A stretch of 64,000 nucleotides of DNA, from the NCBI RefSeq assembly GCF_902726545.1, contig NZ_CACVAD010000007.1, positions 1 through 64,000 on the forward strand, written 5' to 3'. The first letter of the stretch is position 1. Every line of letters begins with the position of its first letter. This DNA is from Yersinia artesiana. Its GTDB lineage: Bacteria > Pseudomonadota > Gammaproteobacteria > Enterobacterales > Enterobacteriaceae. Positions 6,305-47,322 of this stretch are shown one piece after another. The notes beneath the pieces are model-generated. The model did no database searches. It saw only the letters and a program-made list of their open reading frames with translations, and was not told the DNA's origin. The translations under genes and the position numbers were made by a program.

Positions 6305-7810
6305 TTACTCCTGCTCTACGCTGTATTGCTTGCCGACGGCAGCTGCCATCAACACTTCCTGGGTAGCCTGTTCAATGGAGAACTCGCCGCTTAGCTGGCC
6401 TTCATGCATCACAATGATGCGGTCACTCATGCCCAACACTTCCGGCATTTCCGAGGAGACCAATATGATGCTCAGCCCTTCTTGTTTGAATTGGTTTATT
6501 AGCTGGTAGATCTCTTTTTTAGCCCCGACGTCCACACCACGAGTCGGTTCATCAAGGATCAACACTTTTGGCCGGGTCATCAAACCTCGAGCGATAGCCA
6601 CTTTTTGCTGATTACCACCGGATAACAGGCCAATAGGCTGTTCCATGGAAGGCGTTTTGATATTAAATAAACGAATGAAATCCGCCACCGCCTGCTGCTC
6701 ATCAGCATGTTTGAGCGAACCGCCTGAACGACTGAAATAACGCAATGCAGTCAAAGACATATTCTCTTTAACTGACATTCCGAGCACTAAGCCATCCCGT
6801 TTGCGGTCTTCGGAAATATAAACAATGCCGTTTGCCAAACCATCCTGCGGCGAATGAGTCACCACTTCGCGGCCATCTAACATCACAAAGCCCGATTTAC
6901 GCGGCAGCGCACCATAAATGATTTTCATCAGCTCAGTGCGGCCTGCGCCCATCAAGCCCGCTACCCCCAAGATCTCACCACTGTAGAGAGTGAAATTGAC
7001 ATTCTCGACCCCAGGGCCGCATAGCTGTTTGACCTGTAAACGTTTTTCGCCGCGCGGTAAATTCAGACGCGGGTATTGCTCTTCCAATTTACGGCCAACC
7101 ATCATTTCAATCAGAGAGTTTTCAGTGAGTGTATTAACCGGTTTTTCGGCGATAAACTGCCCATCACGGAATACCGTGACGTCATCGCAAATCTCAAAGA
7201 TTTCTTTAAGACGGTGGGAAATATAAACAATGCCGCGACCTTGCGCTTTCAGCTCCTTAATAACATTAAATAAAGAAGCTGTTTCGGTGTCAGTCAGCGC
7301 ATCGGTAGGCTCATCCATAATGATGACTTTGGATTCAAAGCTCAGCACTTTGGCGATTTCCACCATTTGCTGATCACCAATCGAAAGCTCGCCCACCAGC
7401 CGATGGCTGCTATAGCTGATATTAAGGCGCGCCAACAGTAAATCAGCTTCGGCATACATTTTTTTCCAATCAATGCCGCCAAAACGATTTACAAACTCGC
7501 GCCCTAAAAAGATATTTTCTGCGATGGTTAACTGTGGAATCAGGTTAAGTTCCTGATGAATAATGCCAATACCCGCTTCCTGCGACTCTTTCGGGCCATT
7601 AAACACCACTTCTTTACCCAAAAAATGCTGACTGCCGGCATCCTTATTGTAGATGCCAGTCAGCACTTTCATCATGGTCGATTTTCCGGCCCCATTTTCG
7701 CCTACAAGTGCCATCACCCTGCCAGGATAGACACTTAGCGCAGCACCTGAGAGTGCTTTGACGCCGGGAAAGGCTTTATCAATCCCTTTCAGTTGCAGCA
7801 AAGGTTGCAT
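6305..7810 (-). CDS. rbsA: Ribose ABC transporter ATP-binding protein RbsA
   Basis: A 501-residue protein made of two fused ABC domains, as usual for CUT2 sugar importers. The N-terminal domain has Walker [10 protein letters not shown], signature [13 protein letters not shown] and Walker [11 protein letters not shown]. The C-terminal domain has a degenerate Walker A-like GLMGAGRTE and the signature LSGGNQQK with [11 protein letters not shown]. The degenerate second P-loop is normal for the family. It energises RbsC transport of ribose and follows rbsD by 7 bp. Confidence 0.97.
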
Positions 7811-7817
7811 AAACGCC

Positions 7818-8237
7818 TCAGAAAGTTACGCCGGAGCAGAGAATGATGTTAGCAAAGGGGGAACATTCCCCGCTACGAATCACTGCCCGGCTTTGTTTGG
7901 TCTGCTCTTTAAAAGCCTCATGGCTGATATAGTGCAAAGCAATTTGGTTTCCCTGGTGTTGCTCAAGTTGTGATAATTGTGCGAGTAACGTTTCATGGAG
8001 TTGCGGATTATTTTTAACAATCTCCTGCGCAAGGTAAGCACTCTCAACCTGCATTTCTTGCGTTACCACCTCAAGAACCTGGAGGAATCCAGGGACGCCT
8101 TGAGTCAGTGCCAAATCGATACGTGTGGTGGTTGCCGGTATTGGCAGCCCCGCATCACCTATCACAATCTGATCGGTATGGCCCAGGCGAGAGATAACAG
8201 CGGAAATATCAGAATTTAGTAACGCGCCTTTTTTCAT
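7818..8237 (-). CDS. rbsD: D-ribose pyranase RbsD
   Basis: A 139-residue cytoplasmic enzyme, the exact E. coli length, that interconverts beta-pyranose and beta-furanose forms of ribose so ribokinase can use it. The N-terminus [22 protein letters not shown] holds the catalytic His20 region, and GDAGLPIP follows. It is the first gene of the rbs operon. A GGAG site lies before the ATG, and the main RbsR operator ends 12 bp upstream of the start codon. Confidence 0.97.
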
Positions 8238-32809: not shown

Positions 32810-32851
32810 TTTCCTGGCAACAAGCGGTTTATGAAATATTGATTCACAATA

Positions 32852-32978
32852 TATACCCTAAATAATTCGAGTTGCAGGTAGGCGGCAATTGAGATAATCC
32901 CCAGGAGCTTACTCAAGTAAGTGACTGGGGTGAGCGAAAGCAGCCAACACCCCTGCAGCTTGAAGTATTAGCGGTAGG
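32852..32978 (+). repeat. ERIC element 2, between pstS and pstC
   Basis: A 127-bp ERIC with a near-consensus core (AATCCCCAGGAGCTTACTCAAGTAAGTGACTGGGGTGAGCGA, at about 32897-32937). It starts 42 bp after pstS and ends 15 bp before the pstC start. It lies inside the pst operon and would be transcribed with it. Confidence 0.95.
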
Positions 32979-41642: not shown

Positions 41643-42134
41643 TTACTTCAGTTGAGCGCTGATTTGCTCCAGTGCTTTTGTGGCACATTGTGCATCCAGA
41701 TGCCCGCCGGGCGCGCCAGCAACACCTATCGCACCAACCACTTCATCTCCTGCTTTCACCGGCACACCGCCACCTAAAAGTAAGAAACCGGGAATATCTT
41801 TCAGGTTATTGGCCGCGGGTGTTTTCTGACTGTTTTCCATAACTGTCCCACTTGGGGTTTTGGTCGACAGCGCAGTAAAGGCTTTTTGCTCACTGGCTTT
41901 TACGGTATGTGGGCCAGCATTATCAGCACGCAGCACAGTTTTGATGATGCCAGCGCGATCCACAACAGTTACCGCAACGTTATAGCCATCAGCCTGGCAA
42001 ACGGCGAGGGCACGGCTTGCTACGTCGGTAGCCAGAGCCAAAGAGATATTGCGTTCAGTATTCAGACCCGCAGCAGAAGCTTGAGTTATCAGGCCGATGA
42101 ATAAGGCAGAGGTCAGGGCAATAGGCTTGATCAT
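41643..42134 (-). CDS. Secreted GlcG/HbpS-family (haem-binding-like) protein
   Basis: A 163-residue protein with a signal peptide (MIKPIALTSALFIGLITQ, cleavage after ASA) and one GlcG/HbpS domain (PF03928 type). The typical blocks are VAVTVVDRAG, TVKASEQKAFTA, PGFLLLGGGVPVK and GDEVVGAIGVAGAPGG. Streptomyces HbpS of this family binds haem and modulates the SenS sensor kinase. The gene lies 272 bp downstream of a response regulator gene on the same strand, with an ERIC between. Haem binding here is inference; no haem ligand can be assigned from sequence. Confidence 0.85.
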   Translation of the reverse strand: MIKPIALTSALFIGLITQASAAGLNTERNISLALATDVASRALAVCQADGYNVAVTVVDRAGIIKTVLRADNAGPHTVKASEQKAFTALSTKTPSGTVMENSQKTPAANNLKDIPGFLLLGGGVPVKAGDEVVGAIGVAGAPGGHLDAQCATKALEQISAQLK

Positions 42135-42244
42135 ATAAAATCCTTATTGTTAGCGAAGTGAATTCCTCACAGTAACGCTATGCTACGGCGAAAAGTGGTG
42201 AAAAAACATTCGGCTAACTACCCGTTTTACTAGGTACTTATACT

Positions 42245-42371
42245 TATACTCGTCATACTTCAAGCCGCATGTGCGTTGGCTGCATTCGTTCACCCTAGTC
42301 ACTTACTTGAGTAAGCTCCAAGGGATTCGCTCAATTGCCGCCTTCCTGCAACTCGAATTATTTAGAGTATA
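42245..42371 (-). repeat. ERIC element 4, between response regulator and HbpS-like gene
   Basis: A 127-bp ERIC (TATACTCGTCATACTTCAAG ... TTTAGAGTATA) in the reverse orientation, with core CACTTACTTGAGTAAGCTCC. It ends 36 bp before the stop codon of the response regulator gene. Confidence 0.95.
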
Positions 42372-42406
42372 TTGGCGCCTACCTGTAACGCCAATTGCCT
42401 TGGGGA

Positions 42407-43009
42407 TTATTGGGAGGATAAGTGATAGTGATGAATCAGTAATGCCAGCGAGTTGACCTCTAGCTTGGCAAAGATATTCGCGCGGTGAGCCTCAACGGTG
42501 CGCGGTGATAGCGACAATATATGGGCAATCTGTTTGCTGGTTTCCCCTTGAATGATCAGGGCGGCAACTTCCCGCTCGCGGGCTGAGAGTTGGTTGAATA
42601 ACTGTTGATAGCTCGCCCGCTGCTTATGGGCTGTCAGCGATTGTTCATGCTGCTCCAGCGCCATACTGACGGTTTCGATCAGGACATCTGCATCAATCGG
42701 TTTGGTTAAAAACTCCAGTGCACCACCTTTAAAGGCCCGGCGGCATAATTCAACATTACCATGCCCCGTCATAATGATGACCGGCAGGGCGCTATTACGC
42801 TCTTGAATAGCTTCTAATATCGTCATGCCACTTTTACCCGGCATGCGAATATCGAGCAGTACACAACTTGGCTGAGTAATGGCAAAGGTATCGAGGAATA
42901 TCTGGCCATTACTGAATGCGTTAACCTCCCAGCCCATAGTCGTGAGTAATGCGCTCAATGCTGTGCGAACACCCTCATCATCATCAATCAGATAAATGTG
43001 TTTTGTCAT
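42407..43009 (-). CDS. FixJ/NarL-type response regulator
   Basis: A 200-residue two-domain regulator. The receiver domain has the acidic pocket DDD (residues 9-11 from ATG 43009), phosphoacceptor Asp53 in LLDIRMPGKSG, and the conserved Thr and Lys in MTGHG and FLTKPID. The C-terminal LuxR-type helix-turn-helix is LSAREREVAAL through LSLSPRTVEAHRANI. The start overlaps the 3' end of the sensor kinase gene by 26 bp (ATG 43024 is an alternative), so the pair is translationally coupled. Target genes unknown. Confidence 0.9.
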   Translation of the reverse strand: MTKHIYLIDDDEGVRTALSALLTTMGWEVNAFSNGQIFLDTFAITQPSCVLLDIRMPGKSGMTILEAIQERNSALPVIIMTGHGNVELCRRAFKGGALEFLTKPIDADVLIETVSMALEQHEQSLTAHKQRASYQQLFNQLSAREREVAALIIQGETSKQIAHILSLSPRTVEAHRANIFAKLEVNSLALLIHHYHLSSQ

Positions 43010-44333
43010 GCGTACTCCCGGCAATTAGAGGAAAAGTGAGGGTAAAGCAAGCGCCCCCATGTTCATTGTTTCCCGCTTTTATGTCGCCCCCCATTCGTTG
43101 TACCAAGGTTTCACAAAGAGTCAGCCCTAAGCCCAACCCGCTCTCTCGAGTGGTATAGAAGGGGGTAAACAGGCTATCTAACTGCTGCTGACTAAGTCCC
43201 GGCCCGTTATCTTCAATCTGAATAACCCATTGTTTGGCTGTGATATTTACTGTGAAAGTCACCGTCGGGGTAGGGGTATGTTGGAGAGCCTGAATGGCAT
43301 TGCTGAGTAAATTATGAAAAACCTGCTCCAGCCATAAAGGGTCACTTTGTAGTGTGGGTAGATTTGCCGGAATCATGTTTATGATTTTGACATTCGCCGC
43401 GGTTATTTCCTGACTCAACAACACATTCACTCGTCGCCAGATATCAGCCACGACAACCGGTTGTAAATTTATCTGCCCACGGCTGAGTAAGGTTCGCAGC
43501 CGGTCTAATAAAGCAGCAATGCGTTTGATTTGCTCGACAGAGGCCACCAGCAGTGGGGCAACTTGCTTGTCCTGCGGTGGTAACAGCCGTAGCGCGGTCT
43601 GGTTATAGGTCAATGTTGCGGTGAGCGGCTGGTTTAATTCATGGGCGATGCCGGTTGCAATCTCCCCCATGGCATTGAGTCTGGCTTGATCGGCAAACTT
43701 GGCGCGCTGCTCGGCATGTAAACGGTGTTGAGCCAATTGTTGCCAGCGCTGCCAACTGTATAAGGCGGCGGCTATTATCAGCGAAAGCAGTAGGGCGGTG
43801 AACCAGGGTAAATCACGCCAAACCGGGGTGGCATGACCTATTAAAGTGAAAGATTGCGCCCCTTCGCCCACCGGTTTTTGCCACTGCCAGAAACTTTCAG
43901 GCGCTGAATGGCCCAAAATCGCGAGTTGATGCTGCTGATAGCGCAATACCAGACTATCAAAATGGGGCGGTAAACCTACCACTTGTAGCAACTTCTGGGC
44001 ATTAACCTGCAAACCACTGCCGCTGTAGGAGTTCGCTAAACGATAATCTCCATCCTGAAGGTGCAAGGTGAGTTGACCGGGTTTCGATTGATCTGCTGGT
44101 GTTTGGTTTATCGCTACCAGTTGGGGGAAATGGCGCTGTAATTGCACCAGTTGGCTTGGTTCCAACGCCAAAAATAAAATCGCCTGCTGCTGCGCCAACT
44201 GTTGGCTCAATTCGCGATAAATAGTACGAAAATCGGCTTCTCGCTCAGCTTGCTGTGTATTCAGCCCGTACCAGCCTAGCCAGAGAGTGGACATCAGGGT
44301 CAGGATAAACCAGACAGTGATTTTAAAGGCCAT
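42984..44333 (-). CDS. Membrane sensor histidine kinase
   Basis: A 449-residue kinase with TM1 at about 5-22, an extracytoplasmic sensor region of about 150 residues (25-174) that I cannot assign to a known family, and TM2 at 175-195. The HisKA domain has phospho-His231 in GIAHELNQPLTATL, and the HATPase domain contains N box NLLSNAIQAL, G1 EDNGPG and G2 ESGLGLGLTLC. HELNQP-type kinases pair with FixJ-type regulators, as here. ATG 44333 is chosen: an upstream start (44417) would place the N-terminus inside a terminator hairpin. Confidence 0.9.
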   Translation of the reverse strand: MAFKITVWFILTLMSTLWLGWYGLNTQQAEREADFRTIYRELSQQLAQQQAILFLALEPSQLVQLQRHFPQLVAINQTPADQSKPGQLTLHLQDGDYRLANSYSGSGLQVNAQKLLQVVGLPPHFDSLVLRYQQHQLAILGHSAPESFWQWQKPVGEGAQSFTLIGHATPVWRDLPWFTALLLSLIIAAALYSWQRWQQLAQHRLHAEQRAKFADQARLNAMGEIATGIAHELNQPLTATLTYNQTALRLLPPQDKQVAPLLVASVEQIKRIAALLDRLRTLLSRGQINLQPVVVADIWRRVNVLLSQEITAANVKIINMIPANLPTLQSDPLWLEQVFHNLLSNAIQALQHTPTPTVTFTVNITAKQWVIQIEDNGPGLSQQQLDSLFTPFYTTRESGLGLGLTLCETLVQRMGGDIKAGNNEHGGACFTLTFPLIAGSTHDKTHLSD

Positions 44334-47180: not shown

Positions 47181-47307
47181 TATACCCGTCATACTTCAAG
47201 CTGCATGTGTGTTGGCTACGCTCAATAACCCGAATCACTTACTTATGTAAGCTCATCGGGATTATCTCGCTTGCCGCCTTCCTGCAACTCGAATTATTTA
47301 GGGTATA
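47181..47307 (-). repeat. ERIC element 5, downstream of the chemoreceptor gene
   Basis: A 127-bp ERIC (TATACCCGTCATACTTCAAG ... TTTAGGGTATA), reverse orientation, with core CACTTACTTATGTAAGCTC. It begins 3 bp after the chemoreceptor stop codon. Confidence 0.95.
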
Positions 47308-47322
47308 TATTGCTGTTATGCC

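Follow-up and report, generated by a model that had tools for sequence, protein, structure and literature searches.

One of the closest known counterparts of the system analysed here comes from Streptomyces. According to the accessible portions of two papers, HbpS interacts there with SenS, and phosphorylated SenR activates hbpS (PMC3754957, PMC4991794). The 2016 paper states that hbpS-like genes are clustered with senS and senR in actinobacteria only (PMC4991794). An earlier note on the DNA studied here had stated that no such system was known in Yersinia. This was nearly right: a HbpS-like protein of Y. rohdei, whose identity with the protein described below is unconfirmed, is included in a published alignment (legend to Fig. 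1 of PMC3754957), and the accessible part of that paper does not mention a kinase with it. Among the titles listed as matches in a literature collection with few subscription journals, none dealt with a FixJ-type system together with HbpS. We describe a conserved signalling cassette of a kinase, a FixJ-type regulator and a HbpS-like protein; it is real and has apparently not been described before.

Organization of the trio

We analysed a window of 64,000 nucleotides from Yersinia artesiana. The three genes, here called the trio, are located on its minus strand at the coordinates that the earlier note had given, in the order kinase, regulator and hbp, the gene of the HbpS-like protein. Kinase and regulator overlap by 26 bp, counted from the regulator ATG. 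The features are as follows.

42984..44333, minus strand: sensor histidine kinase, 449 aa, ATG start at 44333, HisKA and HATPase_c domains
43803..44252, minus strand: extracytoplasmic sensor domain of the kinase, about 145-150 aa, between two membrane helices (limits by eye)
42407..43009, minus strand: FixJ-type response regulator, 200 aa, Response_reg receiver and GerE DNA-binding domain
42246..42378, minus strand: ERIC-like dispersed repeat, located between regulator and operator and matched 41 times in the genome
42208..42246, minus strand: predicted regulator-binding operator, consisting of a GTA-N4-TAC dyad, another GTA and CCGAAT
41643..42134, minus strand: HbpS-like exported protein, 163 aa, PF03928, Sec-type signal sequence by eye

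The regulator gene and hbp are separated by 272 bp. A promoter of its own is probable for hbp, because this gap contains an ERIC-like repeat and a conserved operator-like block. The repeat, which we take to be ERIC, has a length of about 127 bp, and further copies are located in the window at 32851-32968 and 47182-47308. The copy in the gap lies immediately beside the hbp operator. Several Yersinia whose intergenic regions are short lack it, so the system does not need it. A near-match to the Rfam family V_AS5 at 42249-42372 was rejected; it stays under the cut-off of that family and coincides with the ERIC-like repeat.

The phospho-acceptor His of the H-box is present in 27/27 aligned kinases and the phospho-acceptor Asp in 27/27 aligned regulators. 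The regulator has the receiver and GerE architecture of FixJ response regulators, and FixJ is its best NCBIfam model, although the score of 184.3 bits is below the equivalog cut-off of 255. The earlier note could not assign the kinase domain of about 150 residues, and the N-terminal sensor part indeed gave no Pfam match above the cut-off. A search of the PDB with a profile of 16 sensor sequences revealed nothing credible, the best match (E 0.081) being an unrelated protein. Two AlphaFold runs with 11 Yersinia sequences reached a mean pLDDT of 50.7 and 51.0; the predicted sensor starts with a long helix followed by mixed strands, with a pLDDT too weak for a fold assignment.

Linkage of the genes in Yersinia

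The kinase was matched over its whole or near-whole length in 20 of 25 Yersinia genomes; four of these 20 rows flag one TAA within the matched stretch. The same 20 genomes contain a full-length hbp side by side with the kinase gene, on one contig and strand. In the 18 other aligned rows, identity to the proteins of the window amounts to 93-99% for the HbpS-like protein and 74-99% for the kinase sensor. The remaining five genomes have neither the kinase nor hbp intact. In one of them, G004, the final 23 hbp residues are left between chrR and a permease gene (7787-7855 of locus L016), so the whole trio was probably lost by deletion. In G008 and G016 chrR adjoins the permease gene and the trio is absent, and in G021 and G022 both the trio and a match to chrR are absent.

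ChrR, which the earlier note had seen as a thematic fit to a redox system, was rejected as a trio member and does not appear to be part of the module: the 16-kb stretches of Y. aldovae contain the trio without chrR, and the trio has other neighbours in other genera. The terminator that had been proposed between chrR and the kinase gene is visible as a C5/G5 stem followed by T, but a strict scan of the minus strand did not report it.

Linkage beyond Yersinia

An alignment of the sensor domain matched 12 of 394 genomes of the order, namely three Yersinia and nine others, of which three belong to one genus. An intact hbp follows the regulator in eight of the nine, in varied surroundings; in the ninth (L072) just the two ends of hbp remain, followed by an outer-membrane barrel gene. 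In a family sample the sensor was found in 52 of 392 genomes (E up to 1e-8) and a strong HbpS match in 51 genomes (E up to 1e-50; 62 genomes at 1e-30). In 47 of the 52 sensor-bearing genomes hbp is located on the same strand 1383-1570 bp past the sensor match, which corresponds to the space of kinase core and regulator; the position of the regulator between the two was confirmed in the opened loci only. The earlier note had named conserved linkage in relatives as a check, and with these 47 linked genomes the linkage held, related loci counting as non-independent rows. In total 49 of the 52 genomes hold a trio-type HbpS. In the two that lack adjacency (G834 and G1085) hbp lies elsewhere in the genome, away from the kinase gene. 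The other three (G757, G908 and G1024) contain kinase and regulator without a strong hbp match, and a barrel gene follows the regulator in each. The reverse situation, hbp behind a regulator-like gene with the trio kinase absent, was found in G972 and G874. The regulator-like genes directly before hbp at L175 (5445-6104) and L176 (5039-5752), where the kinase is absent, have altered acidic-pocket residues.

In a thin sample of the class, the sensor was detected in one of 369 genomes, that of the window alone, and HbpS matches were obtained in 117 of 369. We opened 51 class loci outside the family, mostly the best matches of this search. Two (L081 and L082, each with about 52% identity to the window protein) are FixJ-linked, and one (L084) has an OmpR-looking pair beside the HbpS-like gene. 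The other 48, one of which (L083) also shows 52% identity to the window protein, have no matching kinase or regulator within 3 kb, some of their contigs being short. Plasmids gave a HbpS match in 134 records. The 18 regions opened, mostly top-ranked and typed by tblastn where unannotated, comprise 14 FixJ-type kinase-regulator-hbp runs, two OmpR-looking pairs and two with neither. The annotation of a Pseudomonas silvicola plasmid shows kinase and regulator in short, apparently disrupted fragments. Among the carriers are Salmonella houtenae, Duffyella, Pantoea, Variovorax, Microvirga and Rhizobium as well as Agrobacterium, Martelella, Maritalea, Defluviimonas and a Deinococcus, so that the cassette extends to alphaproteobacteria, betaproteobacteria and, on a plasmid, Deinococcus.

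In a HbpS tree of 84 rows from chosen loci, calculated with a quick method without bootstrap, 26 of 29 FixJ-linked rows fall into one clade (SH-aLRT 96). This clade of 31 rows also holds two OmpR-looking and three unlinked HbpS rows, and the fragment of S. reticuli HbpS is placed outside. Because three alphaproteobacterial FixJ-linked rows are placed elsewhere in the tree, the association of kinase and HbpS may have arisen more than once, or HbpS may have been exchanged. In a label test of the tree, in which unlinked rows were not counted, 58 of 500 shuffles were as low for the FixJ label.

Genes accompanying the trio

Recurrent fourth genes encode either a barrel protein (PF13505) or a protein with ankyrin repeats; the start of several of these proteins resembles a signal sequence. 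The outer-membrane barrel gene (about 220-230 aa) lies near hbp at L072, L073, L074, L092, L093, L169 and L172-L174, and it occupies the place of hbp in three genomes. The ankyrin-repeat gene directly follows hbp at L095, L159, L160, L162, L163 and L081, and this order occurs in proteobacteria of other classes and in Deinococcus. Divergent OmpR-looking systems, identified by eye or annotation, are located beside HbpS-family genes at L084, in Vibrio tubiashii (L098) and in Pantoea (L161). The last locus, on plasmid pPAG02 of Pantoea agglomerans, has the arrangement HprSR-uraH-hbp.

A conserved operator-like block upstream of hbp

The DNA upstream of hbp is variable near the regulator gene, and its final approximately 110 bp are strongly conserved in 19/19 Yersinia rows. 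The operator block begins 112 bp before the start of hbp. The same upstream layout recurs in other genera, and in several genomes the stop codon of the regulator falls inside the block. TAC-GTA type boxes resemble FixJ sites.

Of 28 linked loci, 25 carry the GTA-N4-TAC dyad before hbp, at positions -89 to -128, compared with 0.71 expected from shuffles that preserve dinucleotides approximately. None of 50 HbpS-like genes that are not associated with a two-component system has it (0.32 expected), nor does any of the three OmpR-looking loci tested. Only one of 20 kinase upstream regions contains it, and this is not the one of the window. A strict version of the long pattern matched 8/28 linked and 0/47 unlinked loci, a looser version 10/28 and 1/47. 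Ten of 15 genomes contain the exact long pattern TACSNRGN7SGTAN5CCGAAT, each of them once and at the hbp site, a result that is partly circular since the pattern was derived from the same hbp sites. The other five genomes have no exact match; the hbp site of G010 has one mismatch. Allowing one mismatch yielded nine more sites, the G010 hbp site and eight elsewhere, and these eight do not exceed the 15 matches obtained with a reversed-pattern control (up to one mismatch).

The block was followed in the genomes with rearranged loci. In G834 hbp and the barrel gene lie on a different contig from the kinase and have retained the operator, with an exact dyad at -84. The moved hbp of G1085 is preceded by a one-base variant of the operator, and at the kinase locus of this genome the block is located before the barrel gene. 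Where the barrel gene follows the regulator in place of hbp (L172-L174), the block precedes it in all three cases, in one of them with one base changed. In the two genomes with a regulator but no trio kinase before hbp, one has the exact dyad. The exact dyad is thus missing in 3/28 linked, 1/2 moved and 1/2 orphan-regulator loci. Its distribution between linked loci (25 of 28) and unlinked ones (0 of 50) and its co-movement with hbp suggest that the regulator very probably controls hbp directly.

Residues of the HbpS-like protein

The assignment of the third protein in the earlier note as a HbpS-family member with a signal peptide agrees with our data: PF03928 matched residues 30-156 with 106.5 bits (curated cut-off 25; E 1.3e-30), and a Sec-type signal sequence is apparent by eye. 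Its best solved relative is HbpS from S. reticuli (3fpv, E 4.3e-24). However, of the 12 residues named as functional in the S. reticuli protein just four are conserved. The position of the haem-binding Thr-113 is occupied by Phe-117; at this position 25 of 29 FixJ-linked proteins have F and none has T. In the iron motif EXXE (78/81) Glu-78 is replaced by Lys and Glu-81 is kept. Lys-83, Lys-108 and Asp-143 are kept as well, and Asp-141 is exchanged for His (S. reticuli numbering; Lys-108 from the 3fpv alignment). Ser-26 and His-28, which according to the accessible part of PMC3754957 serve oligomer formation and the contact with SenS, correspond to Glu-27 and Asn-29 (3fpv alignment; numbering counted from Tyr-77/Glu-78).

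Cys 46 and Cys 150 were considered as a special redox switch and rejected in this role; they occur in 82 of 83 HbpS-like rows, linked or unlinked. S. reticuli HbpS has neither of them. A disulphide between the two is possible and would be non-specific to the linked proteins.

The genome of the window contains four PF03928 matches. The other three are located in different neighbourhoods, two of them in clusters of the diol or glycerol type (by eye). Within stretches of 11-12 kb around these three genes, inspection by eye and BLAST detected no relatives of the trio kinase or regulator.

Proposed circuit and alternative explanations

The genes of the trio are linked, an operator-like block precedes hbp, and this block moves together with hbp. 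From the sequences we propose, as the probable reading, a two-component circuit dedicated to the periplasmic HbpS-like protein as its conserved output, with the regulator activating through the upstream dyad. The kinase would sense an envelope signal through its periplasmic domain and phosphorylate the FixJ-type regulator, which would bind to the dyad about 85-130 bp upstream of hbp and, in several genomes, also upstream of the outer-membrane barrel gene. The regulator would turn these genes on; activation is favored over repression because, by eye, a possible -10 element lies downstream of the block. The HbpS-like protein would act in the periplasm, where, to judge from its relatives, it most likely binds or neutralises a reactive ligand, with iron, haem, an oxidant and an aldehyde as the candidates. 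By analogy, a redox theme is the likelier signal, since the protein is a relative of HbpS and the HprSR-uraH-hbp arrangement exists in Pantoea. Haem as the signal is weakened by the exchanges at Thr-113, Glu-78 and Asp-141.

It is also conceivable, although we rate it below an even chance, that the trio is a true three-component sensor, the independently evolved counterpart of HbpS-SenS-SenR, in which the HbpS-like target would in addition bind the periplasmic domain of the kinase and set its activity. The pairing of HbpS-family genes with SenS-SenR (accessible part of PMC4991794), FixJ-type and OmpR-looking systems fits this idea, as do the published autoregulation of hbpS by SenR (accessible part of PMC3754957), which has a parallel here, and the trio-type HbpS in 49 of 52 sensor genomes, adjacent in 47. 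Furthermore, a mirror-tree comparison of HbpS and sensor distances beyond kinase core and regulator gave a partial r of 0.22, a value that 3 of 1000 label permutations reached. The kinase core, however, gave a partial r of 0.25, so that the signal is not specific for the sensor; Ser-26 and His-28 are replaced by Glu and Asn; and 3 of 52 genomes have kept kinase and regulator but no intact trio-type hbp, which argues against an obligatory sensory role of HbpS. HbpS may feed back on the kinase here. The fuller version, an independently evolved sensor of the HbpS type with HbpS as both regulator target and ligand-dependent kinase modulator in a closed feedback loop, can be put forward only tentatively, and equally tentative is the extension that such closed-loop sensors are widespread in Pseudomonadota and reach Deinococcota. 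The proposal of an independent three-component sensor in the earlier note stands in part. The trio is a conserved unit distinct from HbpS-SenS-SenR, with S. reticuli HbpS outside the FixJ-linked clade and a different gene order. The role of HbpS as a sensory subunit did not find the same backing: the strongest evidence concerns the reverse arrow, from the regulator to the hbp promoter, and the genomes with no intact trio-type hbp and the residue exchanges count against it.

A small metabolite or aldehyde, rather than redox or haem, is a possible but less likely signal, with HbpS then acting as a metabolic accessory protein. Both the cytoplasmic formaldehyde sensor EfgA and PduO belong to the family (accessible part of PMC8153426), two of the three other PF03928 genes lie in the clusters of the diol or glycerol type and the haem-binding Thr-113 has been exchanged, but the HprSR system beside a HbpS-family gene in Pantoea and the closest solved relative point to redox, and no metabolic neighbour is common to the trio loci examined for their surroundings. 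That hbp merely adjoins the kinase genes by chance in Yersinia is hardly credible. Conserved synteny alone could hold neighbours together within this genus, but the same gene order recurs, amid differing neighbours, across many genera and several classes as well as in one other phylum, together with a shared operator, and on our reading the cross-genus linkage refutes a chance neighbourhood.

Comparison with known systems

The cassette occurs in many Gram-negative bacteria and on plasmids, whereas the accessible literature states that such clustering is confined to actinobacteria (PMC4991794). A recognisable operator makes the function of a large group of proteins, whose sole annotation is "heme-binding protein", testable through one promoter, and the recurrent association of HbpS-family proteins with two-component systems of unrelated types points to a general role of periplasmic HbpS proteins as partners in envelope signalling.

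Among the known systems, FixL-FixJ resembles the trio in that the regulator matches the FixJ model best and PDB entries of FixL constructs are among the matches of the kinase core. In contrast to FixL, the trio kinase has no detected haem-PAS domain and possesses a periplasmic sensor, and the trio scores below the FixJ and FixL cut-offs. HprR-HprS (YedVW) with hiuH, a redox-responsive system, is similar in that it adjoins a HbpS-family gene in Pantoea pPAG02, but differs by its OmpR-type regulator and its divergent arrangement. Common to the trio and to HbpS-SenS-SenR from S. reticuli and S. coelicolor is an exported PF03928 protein clustered with kinase and regulator genes; SenR controls hbpS (accessible part of PMC3754957), and here the operator-like dyad suggests control by the regulator. 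The gene order is kinase-regulator-hbp here and hbpS-senS-senR in Streptomyces, export is of the Sec type (by eye) instead of Tat, and most of the named functional residues, including the haem-binding Thr-113, are exchanged. SenS and SenR also belong to other families than the kinase and the regulator of the trio.
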